From contig OY101116.1 of NCBI GenBank assembly GCA_956465555.1, positions 1,364,001 to 1,428,000 on the forward strand: 64,000 nt of DNA, read 5' to 3'. The DNA is from Nitzschia sp. pyKryTriq1. Its lineage: Eukaryota; Bacillariophyta; Bacillariophyceae; Bacillariales; Bacillariaceae. The notes under the pieces were generated by a model. The model was not told the DNA's origin. It did no database searches and saw only the letters and a list, made by a program, of their open reading frames with translations. Below are positions 10,802 through 63,249 of this stretch, piece by piece (position 1 is the stretch's first letter; each line of letters begins with the position of its first letter). The position numbers and the translations under genes are program-made.

Positions 10802-12127
10802 CTATTTCGCGCCCTGGACTCGCCCTACCCACGAGGGCCAGAAATCGTAGAATCGTTCCATAGCCTCCTTGACAGCCTCGATACCTCCTGCGTAGGAAAT
10901 CCGGAATCGTTTGTCGCCGACATCAGTAGTGGGGTCTTCAAAGTCAATACCAGGAGTAAACGCTACATACTTCTCTTCCAGTAGACACTGGCACATCGCT
11001 ACGGAACCAAAGCCGGGGGCAACATTCTCTGGTCCAAGATCAATGTAAATATAAAAGCCCCCATCTGCGGGTGCAATATTCTTTGGGTCCAATTCCTTAA
11101 ATTTTTTCAGTTGATCGAGGATGAGCTGTCGGCTGGTTCGATACTTCGCGACATGCTGCTCAAGCTCCTCAATGGTGTCATCATCCCAACATTTCAGCGC
11201 TGCTGTCTGGGATATCGTTGGTGCATTGATAAACATGTTTTGCTGCAGACTATTGATAGCATCAAGGATATTTTCGGGAATGATCATCCACCCCAGTCTC
11301 CATCCCGACACTGCGTGTTGAAGGATGAAAAGAAGGACAGGTGAGACACATCAAGCAACACAACATCATAAGCAAACATCGAGTTCTTTTCGCTTACTCG
11401 AATAGTATTTAGAAAAACTGTTGATGATCAAAGCTTTGGAAGAAAATTCCAAGGCTGTGGCTTCCTTGGCTCCGTAGCTAATACCGTGATATATCTCATC
11501 CGAAAGAAACTGAATATGTTCTTCCTCACAAAGCAAACACAGTGCCTTGAGTTCTTCAGGGTTGAGCATTGATCCTGTAGGATTACTGGGCGATGACAGA
11601 ATCAATCCCTTCAAAGGAGTCTCTCCCGCCTCTTTTCGTCGGGAAATTTCCATCTTGAGTTCATTAGCCGTCAGTTTGAACTCTTCATTGATCGGCACGG
11701 TTGCCATTTTGCATCCAAGCGCAGAAAGAATATTCCGGTAGCATGGGTATCCCGAGGACGCGATCGCCACAAAGTCACCAGCATCAAAACATCCCGTAAA
11801 TGCCAATAGAAAACCCCCCGACGATCCTGTTGTCACGACGATTCGATTGGTCGGAACATTTTCCGCGGCAATCCCGTACTTTTGTTGATAGTACTTGGAG
11901 ATTTTTTCGCGCAACGCCAACAATCCGAAGGCATCGGTATATCCCATCACTTGTGGTTCTGTCAAGGCGGCCACTGCAGCACCCGCTACAGGCTTGGGCG
12001 CACCAGTTTCTGGCTGTCCTACCTCGCAGTGAAGAACTTTATGACCAGCCGCCTGCAATTCGTTGGCCCGCTTGAGAACGTCCATGACTTTGAAGGATTC
12101 GACGGAAGAAGCTCGTTGACTCGCCAT
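10802..12127 (-). CDS. Class I/II PLP-dependent aminotransferase (aspartate/alanine aminotransferase type)
   Basis: Exon 1 is 12127-11398 and exon 2 is 11310-10802. The intron is 11397-11311 (87 nt, GTAAGC...GCAG). The split codon (A+TG) gives Met and restores the family motif as NSFSKYYSMSGWRLGW. The product is 412 aa. The Lys in SFSKYYS (about residue 240) is the PLP-binding residue. Other hallmarks are YPCYRN, SSPSNPTGSML (the Asn that contacts PLP), LSDEIYHGISY and C-terminal RFRISYAGG with the substrate-carboxylate Arg. No transit peptide is visible, so a cytosolic enzyme is likely. Amino-group specificity cannot be told from sequence. It is convergent with the upstream VIT gene (50 bp between stops). 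Confidence 0.88.
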
Positions 12128-12377
12128 GACAAAGCAGTGATTGTATGGGGTAGTTGTGTTCGTTATCTTGCTAAGAGTACCAGTACCGGTATGGCTATGG
12201 TGGTGTCAAGGAACTATTCATACTTGTAACTAAAGGATAAAAACAGCAGACAACAGACAAAAGGATTTTCCCGCAACGAAAAATCCAAGGTCAGAAAGAC
12301 GTCATCGTCGTCTTGCCCCCGCCCGTCCGCGTTTCGTCGATGGATACCTGGGACACCCGGCGAAAAGAAATTTTGTC

Positions 12378-12387
12378 AGCCGTTGAG
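12378..12387 (+). repeat. 10-bp direct repeat AGCCGTTGAG, left copy
   Basis: The same 10-mer occurs at 12640-12649, at the far end of the left array. It could be a target-site duplication of the array copy or part of duplicated end sequence. The right array (15915-16173) shows no equivalent, so its meaning is open. Confidence 0.5.
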
Positions 12388-12392
12388 AATTA

Positions 12393-12652
12393 CCCCTTAG
12401 GCGTCAAAAGCGAATTGCGAATTTTGCTATGATCGCCAAAGCAATTAAATGCAAAAAGGGCAACAAATAAAAAATTGCTATTATCGCCAAAGCAATTAAA
12501 TGCAAAAAGGGCAATAAATAAAAAGTTGCCATTATTGCCAAAGCAATTAAATGCAAAAATAGCAATAAATAAAAAGTTGCCATTATTGTCAAAGCAATTA
12601 AATGCAAAAATGGCAATTTTAGCAATTATTGCCCTTCCGAGCCGTTGAGGGG
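12393..12652 (+). repeat. Left copy of an AT-rich array of four about 51-bp units with CCCCTTA/TNAGGGG ends
   Basis: Four head-to-tail units share a core of GCAATTAAATGCAAAAA, then GGGCAATAAATAAAAAGTTGC, then CATTATTGCCAAA, with few changes between units. Within a unit GGCAA and TTGCC are complementary, so each could fold into a small hairpin. The array starts CCCCTTAG and ends TTGAGGGG. A copy of almost the same length (259 vs 260 bp) and the same order of units is at 15915-16173. Because 51 is divisible by three, the array is open in several frames. The resulting repetitive hydrophobic peptides are not considered genes. Confidence 0.85.
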
Positions 12653-12767
12653 TGGTGTCACCAAGAGGATCTCGAAAAAGGATACAGTGGATTTTGTTCC
12701 GGCTTGGAAGGTCTGTGTTGCACCGGGGAGTACAAGCCTTGAGCTTTTCGGCAACCACAACATGGCG

Positions 12768-12822
12768 GGGGACTTTTTAATCAAAATTCCATTAAATAAA
12801 TGATTAAAAGGTCAAAAGTCCC
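12768..12822. repeat. Imperfect inverted repeat GGGACTTTT...AAAAGTCCC
   Basis: The left arm reads GGGACTTTTTAATCA. The complement of the right arm reads the same, with seven extra bases after GGGACTTTT. AT-rich sequence with ATTAAA repeats fills the loop and continues to about 12880. It may be a small hairpin element nested in the larger TIR segment. Confidence 0.5.
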
Positions 12823-12920
12823 TTTAAATATTTCATTAAAAGGCATGTCCGAAACGAGCTATTTCATTAAAAGCCTCGTCTCACTTCCTAAAGATCTCTG
12901 TCTTCTCGATGTCGTAGAAG

Positions 12921-12928
12921 TGACGTCA
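12921..12928. promoter_or_regulatory. Perfect CRE-type palindrome TGACGTCA
   Basis: It lies 242 bp before the 199-aa ORF at 13170, a spacing close to that of the identical motif before the DUF1499 gene at 255. A regulatory role is unproven. Confidence 0.25.
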
Positions 12929-13169
12929 TTTTGACTCATGGATTCGCCCATTAGGGGGGCCCGAGATTACGGGGTGCGTGCGTTGGGAGGCTTCTTTTTG
13001 GTGCGCGCCAAAATAATTCGATCGCTCTTTGCGCATTGCGCGAAGAAGCACGTTCAGAAGCACTTTAAGCAACATTGTCCACACCAACAACACAACACAA
13101 CACAACACAACCCATTCAGCAATACTTGTACCGGTAGCACTACTTGTATCATCATTCTCTATTCTTATC

Positions 13170-13769
13170 ATGAGTGAAAGAGGTGCTGATATCCATCAAC
13201 GAGCCAGGCGTACCAGTGTTGAGATTCGAAATGCAGCACTTACTGAACGAACTCAGGATGGTGTTCAGCGATCAAGCATGGCCAATTTCCTTCAGACAGG
13301 GTCGACGAAGGTGGCGGCACCAGCAAGTACAAGTACTACGAGCTCATCAGAAAAAGAGACCCAACCATTGGGATCTACAACTGCAGAGGAAGTAATCCCC
13401 GTGATTGGAGAAAGAAGGCAGCATTCTGCTGTGTTTGCAACATACAATGTTGATATCGACGATGTGGCAGCAGACTGTGGATTGGCACTTGACAAAGCAG
13501 ACGATTGCTCTACCAATCCCAACAAAGTAGAAAATGATCATCCTATGAAACAGCTCTTGGAGGCTGTGGCTAATAGACTTGCCCAAGAAGTCAACAAGCA
13601 ACGAACTGATAAGCAAGCCAAGGACGCATGGTTGCTGCGACTACTCCAGATGTCGGATTTTAGGCTGTTGGCTAGTATGGCCTCCCATCTTTGTGCCAAG
13701 CTAAATATTACAAAATCAAATCAAGCATACTACATGCAACTGCAGCGAATCAGACACAACATGTGTTGA
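13170..13769 (+). CDS. Unknown 199-aa protein inside the TIR-bounded segment
   Basis: The ORF runs from the ATG at 13170. A longer in-frame ATG at 13029 adds a stretch translated from a CAACA microsatellite and is rejected. The first about 120 residues are polar and rich in S/T/E/Q (low complexity). The last about 75 are helical and amphipathic, with HPMKQLLEAVANRLAQEVNK, WLLRLLQMSDFRLLASMASH and a final HNMC. I recognise no family. Position inside the element, between the left array and the E1 fragment, suggests it is either cargo or an element-encoded protein. No catalytic DDE or zinc motif is visible, so a transposase is not supported. Confidence 0.45.
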   Translation: MSERGADIHQRARRTSVEIRNAALTERTQDGVQRSSMANFLQTGSTKVAAPASTSTTSSSEKETQPLGSTTAEEVIPVIGERRQHSAVFATYNVDIDDVAADCGLALDKADDCSTNPNKVENDHPMKQLLEAVANRLAQEVNKQRTDKQAKDAWLLRLLQMSDFRLLASMASHLCAKLNITKSNQAYYMQLQRIRHNMC

Positions 13770-13831
13770 TGGTGAGGGCGGAGAAGATGATGACATGTTT
13801 TTTTTGTTTTTTGTTTTGTTTTTGAGGATAA

Positions 13832-15808
13832 TCAATTCGTGGCTGAATGGCTGATGGCTCGTCGAACGCTCCCGATTACCACGGAAAATAGGCAGAAAGT
13901 AACCCGGATGTACAGCGCCTCCCTCCTCGCTGGGCTCGTCGGTGGTCGGAGCAATAAAATGACCCAACTCCCCCGCCATGAAATGGTTGCCAGCTTTTCG
14001 GCATCCGCCGCTGCATCGCCGGAACCCGCTTCGTCGTCATTTTCTTCACTCAGATTGACATTTTCCGAAGGAGGCGTCCATTCGGGTTGTTGCAACTGTA
14101 GCTCTTGAACAATACTTTCAAAGGCGGCTCGGTCTCGCACAGGATCGAGACCCCATACGACCGCGTACAAGTTGGAGGTACAGTAGAGATACTCCATAAG
14201 TTCGGGCATTCCCGACTTCCAATCGACGGGACGAGGACGGCGTTTGGTACCGGTCCAAAACTTGGTACCACTGCTTTGTTCCATCACATCGGCCGAATGA
14301 CACAAGTTCAAGACCGAAGTTCGAAAGTCTTGAATCAATCGATCAAATGCCACCTTGACACATGCTCCAAAGTCCAAGCCTGCTGCTGTTGCTGCTGCTC
14401 CTCCTCCTCCCGCTTTATTTTGTTGGAGTTCAATGTAGGAATGAATCATTTGAAGACTCTTGAGTTGTTCTCCCGGTTCCATCGCATCGAGTTGCTCAAA
14501 GAATCCAATCGGATCTTTGCGGAACGTTTCGTATTGATCGGGACCGAATTCAAAATAATCGGAAAAGTAGGCTTGTTTGGCAAACTCGATGCAATGCAGG
14601 GGAAGAAAAGGGAAGGATCGGAGAGTGCACATGGCAATTTGCGTTTCATTTTCATCCGATTCCTTTCCATCATTATAGGTCGAAGTACGAAAGGGTAGAA
14701 TCACTTCATGATTGCATTTCGTACCGAGCGTTCCACTTTCCAACAGTGGCTTGCTGTACATGAGACATTGTTGGTCGGTATATTTCCGCGCCATGACATT
14801 GTCCAAGGCATTCCAACAGACGGTGAGGGATTCCCAGAACTTGTCGTCAAAGAAATCTTCTGAATCGGGTCCGACCTTGGCTTCGAGTGCTGTGATTTGA
14901 AGTTGCGGATTCCATTCCTTGACGACCCGTGCGCCACTGACCGATTTGGGCGATCCGACATCCTTGTCTCGAAAGAGGAACTGTCGGCTCAAGTTGCTGA
15001 CTTCGATCCGATCCATATCGGTCACATAGACATGGCCTTGTTTTCCCGTCGCGACACCCATCAAGGCCAATCCTTTGAGATATTCGCATCCCAAGGCACC
15101 GCAACCGACCAAGAATACTTTTTGATTGGCAAGTTTGTGTTGAAAGTCCTTTCCCATGACGGCCATGGCATGATCGTAACGAGATCCAAACAAGGGACTA
15201 ACATTCGATGTCTCTTGCGAAATCAGACAGGGTTCATCATGATGGATCCATTGCGAAATGGGGGTATACTTTCCGGTCCGTTTCAAGATTTCTTGTGCGG
15301 CCGCGCCTCCCAAAAAGGCACAAAATCCCGTCAATTCGGTCGCAAAGAGCTTGGCAAAGGATTGAATGCGAGACGCATCCAGATCTCGTGATTCTCCCGA
15401 TGGAAATCCCCACTGAATGCTTTGTGCAAAACAGTCGGACGATTTCGATTCTTGCCGTTCCTTGGAGAGACGTTTACAAATCTCGACGAGTATGTCGGCG
15501 TCGTCATTGGAATGCAACTGCGGCCAACGCTTATTTTGTTCTTTATAGAATTGAAGAACGCCAGCATAGGCCAAATGGATTTCAATCCCCTTGCCCTGCT
15601 CCCAATCTTCTCCCCGCAACATTTGGGGAACGGCCGGAGCCGCAGATCCATCCAATGTCTCTCGCAAACTCTTGTATTCCTTGTAAACGGGAGGCCGGAC
15701 TTGTTGAATCAATCCTCCTGCCTGATAGGCCTTGAGATCGTCCATCGAAATGGATGGAGGCAGAACATTAGAGGTCCGGACTCGACCCAACACGACACGA
15801 GAGGACAA
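13832..15808 (-). pseudogene. Ubiquitin-activating enzyme E1 (UBA1) fragment, both termini missing
   Basis: An open frame of about 658 codons (first ATG at 15745) matches the middle of E1. It includes the end of the inactive adenylation half (ELTGFCAFLGGAAAQEILK), the start of the active adenylation half (VFLVGCGALGCEYLKGLALM, with DMDRIEVSNLSRQFLFRDKD) and the catalytic-Cys domain with MCTLRSFPFLPLHCIEFAK (the Cys of MCT). E1 enzymes are about 1000-1060 aa. Here about 300 N-terminal residues and over 200 C-terminal residues, including the E2-binding ubiquitin-fold domain, are absent. Homology stops near 13990, after EKLATIS, and the tail is unrelated. No other exons are present before 16520. 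It is most likely a captured or duplicated fragment; the intact frame suggests it is young. It cannot work as a complete E1. Confidence 0.75.
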
Positions 15809-15914
15809 GTATTACTTGCATTATTCGGAGGCCGACTATCTCGACTTTAAGATTGGTTTCATCACTGGCAAGGATCGCAACCGCAAGGTAGTTCCGGTAC
15901 TGTACGAGGTCTGA
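15770..15914 (+). pseudogene. Possible short coding fragment on the plus strand beside the E1 fragment
   Basis: In the plus strand the frame reads EVRTRPNTTREDKYYLHYS and continues EADYLDFKIGFITGKDRNRK up to a stop at 15912-15914. The arrangement of Arg-rich beta strand, YSxxDYxxF and a basic helix resembles a short motif I associate with unnamed diatom proteins. There is no ATG and it ends where the right array starts. It is a weak call; it may be another captured piece or chance. Confidence 0.25.
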
Positions 15915-16173
15915 CCCCTTAGCGTGGAAAGCGAATTGCGAATTTTGCAATTATTGCCAAAGCAATTAAATGCAAAAAGGGCAATAAATAAAAAGTTGCC
16001 ATTATTGCCAAAGCAATTAAATGCAAAAAGGGCAACAAATAAAAAGTTGCCATTATTGCCAAAGCAATTAATTGCAAAAATAGCAATAAATAAAAAGTTG
16101 TCATTATCGCCAAAGCAATTAAATGCAAAAATGGCAATTTTAGCAATTATTGCCCTTCCGGCTTCTTAAGGGG
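15915..16173 (+). repeat. Right copy of the 51-bp-unit array, same orientation as the left copy
   Basis: Four units start at about 15948, after CCCCTTAG and the shared leader AAAGCGAATTGCGAATTTTG, and end ...CCCTTCCG, then TTAAGGGG. Unit order and variant bases mirror the copy at 12393-12652; both last units read AATGGCAATTTTAGCAATTA. The two copies are direct repeats. The outer sequences beyond them (12348-12392 and 16174-16219) are inverted relative to one another. Confidence 0.85.
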
Positions 16174-16520
16174 CCGTAAAATTTTGACTGCCAAAATTTC
16201 TCAATGCCGGGTGTCCCTGATGTACGGTAGATGCGTGATGGGTGATGAGTGAGTGATGACGACGTGTGCGAGCGATGGATGGGAATGAAGATGATGATGA
16301 TGACGCATACATGGTTGACTCAAGCGACTTCACGACTTCCTTCTCCCCCGCCAGTTTGAAGTGTTTTGGGCAGAAAAACAGATGCATGCGACGCGAAACG
16401 CGAAGAGAAAAAGAGAGAAGGAACGCTGAACGTGCCGGCAAAATAATCCACTCTTTCGTCTCTTTGTTGTAAGGAGAGGACGAAACAAAACAGTACCCAA
16501 GCAGCTTCCCCCCTGTTACA

Positions 16521-23149: not shown

Positions 23150-23570
23150 GGAAGGCTTTGCGTCTATGGTTATGGAAGTACCCAAAATGGAAAATGCTGT
23201 GATGACAAAGTTGGAACACTTTGATGAATGTCGATGATGGACGATGTATCAGTAGTCGGTAGTTGTGTTGCGGTCAGATGACGAGAGATTATTCGAGATA
23301 CGAGATCCTGGGTTTGCCGATAATGGGGAGATGACAAGAAGTACGTATGTACCAGTTGTACGGGTGCCTGCGTTACGTACATTCTACGTACGGTCAGTAC
23401 TGGTACTCTACGATCCCTCCGAGCGAGACGATCATCATCGTCATCATCATCAATCAATCACACTACCAGGTATCATCAAGCCCAAGCCTGATCAAGCTTT
23501 GAAACGTACGAAGGACACACTCTGAAAAAAAACATCGGCATTTGTATAAGGCGCGTCGCGCGAGCGAGTG
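23150..23570. other. Intergenic region, no gene seen
   Basis: These 421 bases hold GTAC-rich sequence (about 23340-23405) and an ATC/CAT microsatellite (23430-23455). No credible ORF is present. Confidence 0.5.
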
Positions 23571-24026
23571 GTACGACCCCGGCTGCAAAACAGAAAATTC
23601 CCCACATTTCAAGTCCAAGACATGGACGATGAAGACCCTCTAGCAGGAATCCTCAACGCAGTAGCCTTCGCAGTAAGAGCTACCGTCCACACCACAACTC
23701 AAGCAACCCCAATGCAACTCGTGTTCGGACGAGACGCTATTATGAACATCCAATTCGAAGCAAATTGGAAACTGATCAAGGATCGAAAACAGAAACTTAT
23801 CAAACAAAACAACGCGCGAGAGAACTCGAAGCGAATTCCCCATAACTACCAAGTCGGGGACGAAATCCTCATAAAACAGGATCAAAACACAAAATTCGGA
23901 ACGGACCCATACAAAGGTCCATACGTTATTACGGAAGTTCGAAACAATGGAACCGTTCGCGTTCGCGAAGGCATAATTGAAGATACTTATAACATACGAA
24001 TGATAACCCCTTACAAACGCTCGTAG
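23571..24026 (+). mobile_element. Ty3/gypsy retrotransposon remnant, integrase C-terminal end
   Basis: The frame, with no ATG at its start, encodes the last about 150 residues of a gypsy-type polyprotein. RKFPTFQVQDMDDEDPLAGI leads into FAVRATVHTTTQATPMQLVF with GRDAI. A chromo/GPF-like tail follows, in which YQVGDEILIK, DPYKGPYVITEVRNNGTVRV and a stop after YKRS are recognisable. This layout is the usual end of Ty3/gypsy integrases. Upstream reverse transcriptase and protease parts are missing and no LTR pair is evident, so it is a dead fragment. Confidence 0.85.
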
Positions 24027-42372: not shown

Positions 42373-43120
42373 TGTTGAGCTTCTGACTTCGGCGTTGATA
42401 ACAAAGGTTGGAATCGCGATCGACCAGTTGTAGCTGATGAAAGGGTGGATTAAAACCCGTGACGGCGACAACAACAACTTGTGCAAACAGGAGACATAAT
42501 GAGATGACTGCATCCACTGCGGACTTGCATGCAACACGGGGGTGAAAGGCCACTCATCCGTCCAGCCGGTACCCGCTGTCACCGACCGTACTGGTACCGT
42601 ACTACAAGTACGGTACCGTACTGTACCGGTACAGTAACACCGGTACTCGTAAGCACGGTATTGCGCGTTGGTTGCGTAGCTTCTCGTACTTGGATTACGG
42701 GTTTCATTATTTCGCGCATTTGAATGATCAAACTGCTGGTACGAGTACGAAAATTTTACGTTGATCGTGATTTTGGAATCGAGTCGGAGGGGTCCAATTT
42801 TGAGATTTCATCCTGGTTGCTGGCATCGACAATGGCGGCGTGCTTGGAAGTTCGATTCGAATGCTTCAATGCTTTGTCATAAAACAACCTCTGCAAAAGG
42901 CTAGCTATCAATTCTATGCCGTAGATTAGTTCTAGAGCTGTGGTAAGAAAAAGAGTTGACCCTCAAAGGGCTTCAAATAATGACAAGTGGCCCTCGTAGT
43001 AGCCTCCCCACAGTCATCTCTGGAAAAATGCAAGAGATGATGATATTTTAGAGAGGCTAAAGGCAGCCTTTATGCAAGTTTTAGATATATATAGTGTAAT
43101 GTTGTTTTTCTGTTTTCATT

Positions 43121-43290
43121 TTGATGAGTAACCGTGTCGCTAAAATCAGCAGAGAGAGGCAGAACATATCAATTTAAAAATAAGATGGAGCTAATACATA
43201 TCACAACAAACTACAACTACTTGTACTCATCTCTTCTGATTTTACAAGTTCAAAGTGTGGATGAAGACTTTAGGGGAACTGGTTCTCTTT
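43121..43290 (+). repeat. 170-bp tandem duplication, copy 1
   Basis: The unit starts TTGATGAGTAACCGTGT and ends ACTGGTTCTCTTT. Copy 2 follows without gap and differs at about two positions (C/G at 43138, A/G at 43272), so the duplication is recent. Confidence 0.9.
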
Positions 43291-43460
43291 TTGATGAGTA
43301 ACCGTGTGGCTAAAATCAGCAGAGAGAGGCAGAACATATCAATTTAAAAATAAGATGGAGCTAATACATATCACAACAAACTACAACTACTTGTACTCAT
43401 CTCTTCTGATTTTACAAGTTCAAAGTGTGGATGAAGACTTTGGGGGAACTGGTTCTCTCA
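43291..43460 (+). repeat. 170-bp tandem duplication, copy 2
   Basis: This is the second unit, matching copy 1 to about 43458. It ends 356 bp before the cpn60 start codon, so it may lie in the promoter region of that gene. Confidence 0.9.
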
Positions 43461-61582: not shown

Positions 61583-62251
61583 TTTATAAAGTGTGTTGTT
61601 GAGGGAGGTGCCAGTATATACTTCTACAGTACCAGGTACCGCTACTGTGCGTCCTTTGGTTTGCTTTGGATATTGTTGCGGTACAGCGACGACGAGAGGT
61701 AACAGTTGTTGTATTTCGGGGCAATTTTTTTACTGGCGTGGGCAGGGTCTTTTGATTAGCCCGATCCGAGCTAGGGTCGACCGTCAGTTTCGACAAGAAG
61801 CAACAGAGCAGGTAGCTGACCACTCTGCTCTACCAAGTTATAATAATTATTTTTATATACATAGGAGTTTTGGAGAATTAGGTGGTTGTTAAAATCCGTG
61901 AGTTCTACTAGGCACGTACATAGGAGTTTTGGAGAATTAGGTGGTTGTTAAAATCCGTGAGTTCTACTAGGCAGTGGCTAGCGGCTCAGGGATGATTCAT
62001 TCGGGCTAAAGGACTAATTTGACTGTGGGTTAACCGTTTCACGTTTCACACCGAAGCACGGATTTCGCGCGATGGAATTTTGGCGATATCAGCATCTCAA
62101 AAATTACTACCTTGGCGATAACCATACTCTGTACTCTCTCTGAGCCTCCATTGATCAATTCTTTCATACAGAAAGTAGAACAAGCGTCTATCCTTGCGTA
62201 GTTGGCAGCAGTTTATTTTTTGAGTGATTTCTTGAGACGATATTTAGGTAT
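61583..62251. other. Intergenic region with 59-bp tandem duplication
   Basis: The 669 bases hold a tandem duplication (61859-61972) and a CAGGTACC/GGTACC site near 61632. No gene is seen. Confidence 0.5.
61859..61972 (+). repeat. Two tandem copies of a 59-bp unit
   Basis: The copies start ACATAGGAGTTTTGGAG at 61859 and again at 61918, and each ends GAGTTCTACTAGGC. The 55 bases in each are identical; the four-base joiner is ACGT, within ...GGCACGTACATAGG. The exact identity shows a recent event. Confidence 0.9.
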
Positions 62252-62512
62252 ATGTCGGCTTTGGATTACTATTTTCGAGGTGGAAATGATGATGAGGATG
62301 CATCCGACTACGCATCTGAGGACGAAGAAGATGCTGTAGCAGCCTTTCTCACACATGATGATGACTCGGCTCATGATTATATACATCCAGCACAAGCCCA
62401 TGGTGGCGGTGGAATTGTTGCTAGGGCTGTATCACTGCTCGCTGGTTCATTTGACAATGAATCTACAATTTTTCATGGAAAAGAAGCGGAGCCCGAAGAC
62501 CATTTTATGTAG
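62252..62512 (+). CDS. Short acidic ORF, possible N-terminal piece of a broken piggyBac-like element
   Basis: The 86-aa ORF starts MSALDYYFRGGNDDEDASDY with ASEDEEDAVAAFL and is otherwise unremarkable. Acidic D/E/S-rich N-termini are common in piggyBac transposases. It points towards the minus-strand transposase fragment and overlaps its end by about 40 bases. It may be a real small gene, an exon, or the mis-oriented N-terminus of the same element; confidence is low. Confidence 0.3.
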   Translation: MSALDYYFRGGNDDEDASDYASEDEEDAVAAFLTHDDDSAHDYIHPAQAHGGGGIVARAVSLLAGSFDNESTIFHGKEAEPEDHFM

Positions 62513-63170
62513 TGCGATTTCCTTGCAAAGCCTCCAAGATGCATCCTTTGCTGGTCCCCCTTGTCGACCCCAAACATGTACCGGTGGTATTCCTTCAGCG
62601 GATGCGGTACTTTCAGTTGTTTACACACATTCTGCCCCTCGCGTCTTTGGGTGTCCTCCAATTGCGTGTTCAATAGAGTCGAGACGCAATTCACTACTCG
62701 GTTATCTCGCCATTGAACCAACAAGACTTCATTTACCTTGCTCCGGTCGGCTGTAGCCGGCATACCAACCAAATGAGCCAACCAATCGATACGGTATCGT
62801 TGTCCATTCTTCTTGTTTGGACATTCCTTGACAACTCCAACCAGGTGGCCCGAAATACCGTCGATCGGCCGGCTATCAGTGGAAAAAAGGAAAGAAGATC
62901 CTAAAAGTTTTCGTTGGGCAAACCGGGCACGGGACCTTTTACCAGTGGCCTTCTGCACCGGTTGCTGGTCGATTTCCATGCTCATACCCATTGCTCCAAC
63001 TTCGCCAACGACGATGGGCGAGGTATCGGCAGATACTTGAAGGATGTCGTCCGCTGGAGGCGGCTCGTCGGCCATGTCCGTGTCGGTGGGAGGAATTGTC
63101 GTGTTTTTGGTCACAATTGTTAAATTACCATTCGGAGGTGTTGTGTCCTCCTGAAACAAAGCACGGATGA
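62473..63170 (-). mobile_element. piggyBac-like transposase fragment (DDE_Tnp_1_7 type), truncated
   Basis: The frame reads from an exon boundary TTTGTTTCAG/GAGGAC at about 63151 down to a stop at 62473. The region KVNEVLLVQWRDNRVVNCVS leads to HPLKEYHRYMFGVDKGDQQR and the following HLGGFARKSHYIKW. This matches the piggyBac motif where Y-N/H-x3-M-G-V-D-x2-D-Q precedes an aromatic/basic stretch ending in KW. A preceding domain with GHLVGVVKECPNKKNGQRYR may be a chromo-like or linker part. Upstream catalytic regions with the first Asp residues are missing and the C-terminal end stops directly after the KW. It is a dead copy. Confidence 0.7.
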
Positions 63171-63249
63171 ACCAAAATTGATGCTTGCATGAATAATCAA
63201 CAAGAAAGTACATACAAAAATAATAATGAAGGCTTGAAGACAGGGTCAA

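Follow-up and report, generated by a model that had tools for sequence, protein, structure and literature searches.

A 64,000-nucleotide stretch of the genome of the diatom Nitzschia sp. pyKryTriq1 (contig OY101116.1, positions 1,364,001 to 1,428,000, or G000:C2:1364001-1428000; hereafter the window, numbered from its first letter) contains a transposon, element W, that carries rearranged pieces of host genes between inverted ends. Together with three other elements of the same genome, A, B and C, it forms a real, mobile family of gene-fragment-carrying DNA transposons with terminal inverted repeats (TIRs), and we are highly confident that W belongs to a non-autonomous Pack-TYPE family of which four copies were found, with a cargo copied from host genes. 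All copy searches were made in that genome, a 40.65-Mb assembly of 20 contigs, and since they score best candidates only, the number of copies is at least four. An initial annotation of this DNA had proposed that the segment is a candidate Pack-TYPE element, and this proposal is supported, with corrections. These ends occur in four elements that carry two cargos, and the parent genes of the cargo could be located.

Termini, copies and insertion sites

The TIRs of W have the form GGACACCCGGC...GCCGGGTGTCC, i.e. the left end, GGACACCCGGC, faces its imperfect complement at the right end, with identity at 24 of the 29 outermost bp. None of 2,000,000 random 29-bp pairs from the window reached 24 identical positions, the maximum being 20. 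The motif CCCCTTA is found about 43 bp inward from each end. The initial annotation had recognized these inverted ends, but it had also counted the outermost CTG into the inverted repeat, and for that reason missed the duplication and stated that no clear target-site duplication was present. The two CTG trinucleotides are in fact direct repeats directly outside the TIRs, and represent a 3-bp target-site duplication (Table 1). The two arrays of a 51-bp unit in the same orientation, also described in that annotation, are present as well.

Table 1. Positions of the four elements and of the features of W (coordinates without a contig name are window positions)
Feature	Position	Strand	Details
Element W	12351-16216		3866 bp; flanks CTG/CTG; cargo 1
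Element A	C16:194742-197829		3088 bp; flanks CTG/CTG; cargo 1
Element B	C16:469038-472305		3268 bp; flanks CAG/CAG; cargo 2
Element C	C4:3061429-3062844		1416 bp; flanks CAG/CAG; cargo 2
Left target-site duplication CTG	12348-12350	.	direct CTG/CTG; CWG on both sides in 4/4 copies
Left TIR, GGACACCCGGC...	12351-12379	+	matches the right end's complement at 24/29 positions
Left arm, 313 bp, common to the four elements	12351-12663	+	98-99% identity; 2-6/313 mismatches between copies
Left array of 51-bp units, 3.8 copies	12424-12617	+	Tandem Repeats Finder
Class-3 lipase gene piece, 78 bp	12662-12739	-	parent G000:C3:19329-19406, minus strand, 98.7%; parent Lipase_3
Short E1 stretch separated by the nested insertion	12735-12749	-	first 5 bp common with the lipase piece; parent uninterrupted (...AGCCTTGAGCTTTTCGGC...)
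8-bp target-site duplication AGCTTTTC, left copy	12742-12749	.	single occurrence in the E1 parent gene
Nested transposon	12750-13991	+	own inverted ends GGCAACCACAACATGGCGGGGGACTT; insertion shown against the E1 parent
Open reading frame of 199 amino acids, unknown function	13170-13769	+	inside the nested transposon
8-bp target-site duplication AGCTTTTC, right copy (coincides with the first E1 bases)	13992-13999	.	comparison with the E1 parent
Ubiquitin-activating enzyme E1 fragment, 593 open codons	13992-15774	-	parent G000:C3:24900-26682; 98.0% over 1783 bp, 0 gaps, 0 stops
Piece of an unknown gene for 224 amino acids, 118 bp	15772-15889	+	parent G000:C3:22112-22229, minus strand, 98.3%
14 bp beside the right arm	15890-15903	+	no match to parent past the junction; filler, or arm sequence lost in B and C
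Right arm, 313 bp, common to the four elements	15904-16216	+	99-100% identity; 0-3/313 mismatches
Right array of 51-bp units, 3.8 copies	15945-16138	+	orientation as left array; Tandem Repeats Finder
Right TIR	16188-16216	-	inverted-repeat, TIR-pattern and end comparison
Right target-site duplication CTG	16217-16219	.	direct CTG/CTG; CWG on both sides in 4/4 copies

Searches with the left arm, with the right end and with the TIR pattern all returned the same four elements. A 20-base TIR pattern has eight exact sites genome-wide, all of them in four convergent pairs, and no unpaired arm was seen among the search matches, the eight matches of the left-arm search all lying inside the four elements. 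Other pairs of the same ends with different cargo, which the initial annotation had suggested looking for, thus do exist: there are three more elements, two of which carry a cargo different from that of W. The duplication fits the pattern CWG on both sides of all four elements.

Among the 1200-bp flanks of the four elements no similarity was detected at E-value ≤ 0.01, and therefore the elements are not segmental duplications. One may still consider that duplication or ectopic recombination between repeats, rather than transposition, produced the four segments, given that directly repeated arrays could recombine, that A and W differ mainly by internal deletions, and that seven bases, CTGATGT, recur in the right flank of both W and A. 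However, no flank similarity extends beyond CTGATGT, all four elements show CWG/CWG, no product with a single array occurs among the matches of the left-arm search, and a site without A has a single CTG. We rejected segmental duplication on the basis of the flanks, and regard this origin as exceedingly improbable.

The site just mentioned was obtained by searching with the four joined flank pairs. It lies at C8:867100-867339, is paralogous to the A site but lacks the element, and aligns across the junction of A with 89% identity. It reads CCTCCTTCGTCTGATGTTGAAAGAAGTCA, and over that stretch it is identical to the joined flanks of A. An empty site, which had been proposed as a check, hence exists for a single copy, A; it is a paralogous site of this genome and not one from a related strain. 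Element B is located where one repeat, R1, meets another, R2, and its CAG spans the R1/R2 junction; the four R1 copies that we looked at diverge past CCATCA or a variant of this motif, and the three R2 copies start with GGGGCC after TCA or TGA. The position of B is consistent with simple insertion. R2 itself is possibly a Harbinger-like element, copies of which (the right flank of L010, and L084, L088 and L089) begin with GGGGCCGTTCTATCGAAGCG directly after TCA or TGA, B being inserted on the first base of R2.

As for the surroundings of W, it occupies the intergenic space between two divergent genes, encoding an aminotransferase and lipoyl synthase (window positions 12127 and 16521). Their apparent start codons are about 220 and 300 bp away from W, respectively, and thus both promoters may be affected.

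Origin of the cargo

Cargo 1 is 99.5-100% identical between W and A over the aligned stretches, A lacking approximately W positions 563-980 and 1121-1474, and cargo 2 is about 99% identical between B and C, with a large internal deletion in C (approximately B positions 936-2799). The presence of cargo 1 in W and A, which lie at unrelated sites, and of cargo 2 in B and C shows that each cargo moved as a unit after its capture.

All pieces of the cargos above 15 bp in length could be traced to a parent gene or to a nested transposon. The three parents of cargo 1 lie within 7.4 kb on contig C3 and are 98.0-98.7% identical to the captured pieces, whose order and orientation are altered in the cargo. 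The initial annotation had listed a UBA1 fragment without both ends, and this holds, as 593 codons are present compared with 1323 in the parent, a single-exon open reading frame on another contig to which the fragment aligns at 98% identity; the captured pieces of 78 bp and 118 bp were absent from its list. Pfam domains ThiF, UBA_E1_SCCH and E1_4HB are found in the E1 fragment. Among 59 relatives of the E1 parent the three nearest are 75, 75 and 69% identical, and those with names include Ditylum, "Thalas...", Thalassiosira exigua, T. pseudonana, Odontella aurita and one "Symbi..."; Ditylum, Thalassiosira and Odontella are diatoms, which agrees with a diatom host. The parent gene for 224 amino acids has no Pfam match.

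In cargo 2, an S41-protease gene (C5:1989403-1991058) contributes 1.65 kb, and a cyclase-phosphodiesterase locus contributes two pieces, C10:297857-298047 and then 297068-297851, i.e. in swapped order, with 96.6-98.2% identity to the parents. Beside the left arm of B there are 15 unassigned bp, the counterpart of the 14 bp at the right of W; both stretches may be filler. If these 14 and 15 bp are instead arm sequence that was lost in the other lineage, then the points at which the two captures broke the shell would lie no more than about 15 bp apart at either side. No transposase domain was detected by Pfam in the five larger open reading frames of the cargos that were scanned (one of which belongs to the nested transposon) or in two short frames.

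The nested transposon is unrelated to its host element and was inserted after the capture of E1: the E1 parent runs AGCCTTGAGCTTTTCGGC uninterrupted, and W has AGCTTTTC on either side of the insert. Its ends, GGCAACCACAACATGG..., are inverted (GGCAACC...), and it is a dispersed repeat with copies on contigs C2, C8, C17, C3 and C5. The insert is also present in A, where two internal parts of it have been deleted, so that W and A must have split after that insertion. The open reading frame of 199 amino acids, counted as cargo in the initial annotation, does exist, but since it is part of the nested transposon we rejected it as a captured gene; it had no Pfam match, and none of 369 homologue candidates reached E-value ≤ 0.001. 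Regarding the other copies of this repeat, the 8-bp duplication is also seen at the C17 copy L022, and copies L020 and L023 have no matching duplication.

Capture mechanism

All five parent genes are still present at their own loci, implying that capture proceeded by copying and not by cutting. At six of the eight junctions, excluding the two that adjoin unassigned bases (B left and W right), we measured microhomologies of 2, 5, 3, 3, 3 and 0 bp, a sum of 16. Random breakpoints in the same loci have a mean of 0.68 bp, and a sum this large was attained by only 15 of 50,000 random sets of six.

In these elements a shell of two conserved 313-bp arms, each comprising a TIR and an array of 51-bp units, brackets the copied pieces. 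A transposase acting in trans would recognize the GGACACC ends. Insertion takes place at CWG with a 3-bp duplication, as can be seen from four target-site duplications and one unoccupied site. Capture itself may occur through repair or through template switching at a replication fork between the arms, hopping among templates at microhomologies of 0-5 bp. Such template switching has been proposed for multicopy animal Pack-TIRs (PMC8277862).

An alternative route is the hybrid element described for Arabidopsis Pack-CACTA (PMC13317346), in which two insertions near each other are both deprived of the end that faces the other, and the intervening DNA turns into cargo. That the three pieces of cargo 1 come from a single 7.4-kb neighborhood on C3 is what one would expect if two elements had once flanked it. 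Nevertheless, these pieces are small and not contiguous, with inversions and changes of order when compared with the chromosome, cargo 2 joins a C5 sequence to two pieces of C10 in swapped order, and no arm sequence was found near any of the parents by the left-arm search. We consider this route unlikely, and template switching would fit such non-contiguous, inverted and reordered pieces better than a fusion of neighboring elements.

Divergence of captured pieces from their parents

The E1 fragment differs from its parent by 35 changes, 26 synonymous and nine non-synonymous, without gaps (dS 0.070, dN 0.0065), and the fragments of W and A differ by one synonymous change. In the S41 piece there are 10 synonymous and four non-synonymous sites when B and C are pooled, three of the sites (one replacement) being changed only in C; this count leaves out seven base differences or gaps upstream of the reading frame that was assumed, two gaps within that frame and four mismatches past the junction, in the next piece. 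B also has an 8-bp deletion and a 1-bp insertion there. A simple binomial test yields p ~6e-11 for E1 and, with an assumed neutral expectation of 0.22, ~1e-4 for S41. We therefore rejected neutral decay of the cargo after capture, which predicts far more replacements.

The eight amino-acid differences in E1 are informative in part. At one of them (G) the captured copy matches 10 of 12 homologues, and at another (K) it matches the nearest homologue. At alignment columns 688 and 1030, some homologues share the residue of the parent and none that of the captured copy, and the remaining four differences are indecisive. Thus, both lineages have changed. The explanation that we favor is that capture was probably recent and used as templates the alleles of a lineage with about 2% divergence, the alternative being that the copies have been under constraint.

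A further reading holds that the E1 cargo is an expressed and selectively maintained protein gene, not a passive passenger. Its 593 codons are open, the synonymous excess is pronounced, and at columns 688 and 1030, i.e. two of the eight differences, the captured copy itself has changed. Yet both ends of E1 are missing, the fragment is disrupted close to its 3' end by the nested transposon, and the S41 piece of B has the same synonymous excess despite its deletion and insertion. Moreover, recent capture from a diverged functional allele would give the same pattern, and at two of the eight differences the captured residue, K or G, is the one that matches homologues. A maintained E1 gene thus seems to us a doubtful explanation, with a low probability.

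Transposase and superfamily

The transposase acting on this family is most likely, as far as we can infer, of the NuwaI/Harbinger type. NuwaI is a Harbinger-related group with a CWG duplication and TIRs of 12-61 bp that usually start with GGG, reported in 16 animal genomes (PMC4482050), and Harbinger-like elements have been reported in the diatom Thalassiosira pseudonana (PMC2806351). The TIR of the present family is about 29 bp long, and starts with GGA if the duplication is CWG, or with GGGA if the central base alone is duplicated.

A search of the genome with the PF13359 profile gave five matches, four above the cut-off, at whose loci no paired ends with a 3-bp duplication were found, and none of the inverted repeats shown there had the ends of the family; a PF04827 search had no match, with controls that were equally silent. 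Within 1.5 kb of the PF13359 matches there is a single resemblance to the start of the TIR: at L079 (G000:C4:2493061-2496366), the sequence GGACACCCTGCG occurs upstream of the transposase frame, unpaired and with two mismatches out of the first 12 bases. The only complementary end with at most two mismatches at this locus lies farther on, inside another open frame, and the transposase frame has one TAG inside the PF13359 match. Because a proper partner end is missing we take the resemblance as probably due to chance. A 14-base TIR pattern with one mismatch allowed had 23 matches, compared with seven for the reversed control, eight of them in the four elements and 15 elsewhere. Of these 15 we examined only the pair on C17, the one extra exact 14-base match (C17:755791) and its one-mismatch neighbor at 756052, and rejected it, as it is located inside a repetitive protein gene. 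That locus, L090 (G000:C17:751500-757500), has an open frame of about 2000 codons that extends to the locus ends and encodes a highly repetitive protein, with near-identical tandem repeats and with units such as VPGVPDEDxPFDRPGQ. Exact-match searches for the TIR pattern in the viral_contigs and genome_contigs collections, from which records near this genome may be excluded, gave 0 matches each.

Since no transposase with matching ends was found, the superfamily is an inference, and we do not file the family as NuwaI. The ends may instead belong to another superfamily with 3-bp duplications, for example to a relative of CACTA/EnSpm. CACTA elements characteristically have subterminal tandem repeats, and the PF13359 loci yielded no Harbinger-type transposase with these ends, both of which speak for this possibility. 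On the other hand, the terminal consensus of CACTA elements is CACT(A/G), from which the termini GGACACC differ. In addition, a CWG duplication accompanied by TIRs that usually start with GGG is the published description of NuwaI (PMC4482050). An assignment to CACTA/EnSpm or a similar superfamily appears to us rather improbable.

A more far-reaching scenario would be the following: a diatom Pack-type family is moved by a NuwaI-type (CWG) transposase, a type so far reported only from animals; its short two-armed shell repeatedly gains, always at a single central point, patchworks of several templates through template switching at microhomologies; and the pieces, which differ from the local parents mainly by synonymous changes, were copied in a diverged lineage and recently brought in by introgression or horizontal transfer. 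We offer this combined scenario only tentatively, as a rather unlikely possibility. As for the main reading, that of a mobile Pack-TYPE family, several observations weigh against it. Genome searches uncovered no autonomous element or transposase with these ends, which the initial annotation had proposed to look for, nor paired ends within 1.5 kb of the five PF13359 matches, CACTA and other transposase families not having been searched. Allowing up to three mismatches in the 20-base TIR pattern added two matches genome-wide, compared with one for the reversed control. The copies found are only four, a lower bound, and in the joined-flank search W and C matched their own flanks only, the unoccupied site being seen as a paralogue, for A. 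Finally, the E1 divergence is mostly synonymous, which neutral decay since capture leaves unexplained.

Other features of the window

Two tandem copies of a 170-bp unit, 97% identical, are found at window positions 43112-43458, shortly upstream of a chaperonin gene (presumably GroEL-like), and a 59-bp unit is present in two perfect tandem copies at 61858-61973. Judged by eye, the open reading frame at 23568-24026 resembles a C-terminal piece of a retrotransposon integrase, and that at 62473-63249 a piece of a piggyBac-like transposase.

Comparison with known gene-capturing transposons

Elements of this kind are known from plants and animals, and gene-fragment shuffling by TIR transposons has been documented in both (PMC8903248, PMC8277862). 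A literature search of open-license papers, mostly by title, retrieved no Pack-type element described in a diatom, and apparently new, at least to us, are the lineage of the host, the ends, and the paired arrays of the same direction. Diatoms would thereby join the hosts in which gene capture by TIR transposons is documented, and shuffling of the type seen in plants appears to operate in them too. Because the family is small and recent, the assembly compact and the pieces longer than 15 bp traced, the steps of capture can be read base by base.

Like the Pack-MULE, Pack-CACTA and Pack-PIF elements of plants (Gisby and Catoni 2022, PMC8903248), the present elements are non-autonomous, have TIRs and target-site duplications, and carry copied fragments of host genes, in some plant elements also from several loci. 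They differ in their diatom host, in the subterminal arrays of the same orientation and in the four copies found, and also in the duplication, which is CWG here and TTA/TAA in most PIF elements of that account. With animal Pack-TIRs (Tan et al. 2021, PMC8277862) they share the copying of host pieces into TIR elements, breakpoints with microhomology and, as in the multicopy ones, positions far from the parents, whereas the host lineage and the ends are different and each full cargo has three separate host pieces. With NuwaI of the PHIS transposons (Han et al. 2015, PMC4482050) the resemblance lies in the 5'-CWG-3' duplication, in a TIR length within the published range and in termini that begin with GG; here, however, the TIR starts with GGA and not the usual GGG, a transposase with these ends was not found, and NuwaI is reported from animal genomes only (16 of them). 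Within the stramenopiles, giant TIR families that lack a transposase and are said to carry only non-transposase genes have been likened to Pack-MULEs in the brown alga Ectocarpus (PMC12477816); in contrast to these, the elements of Nitzschia are short chimeras of identifiable host-gene pieces whose parents have been located.

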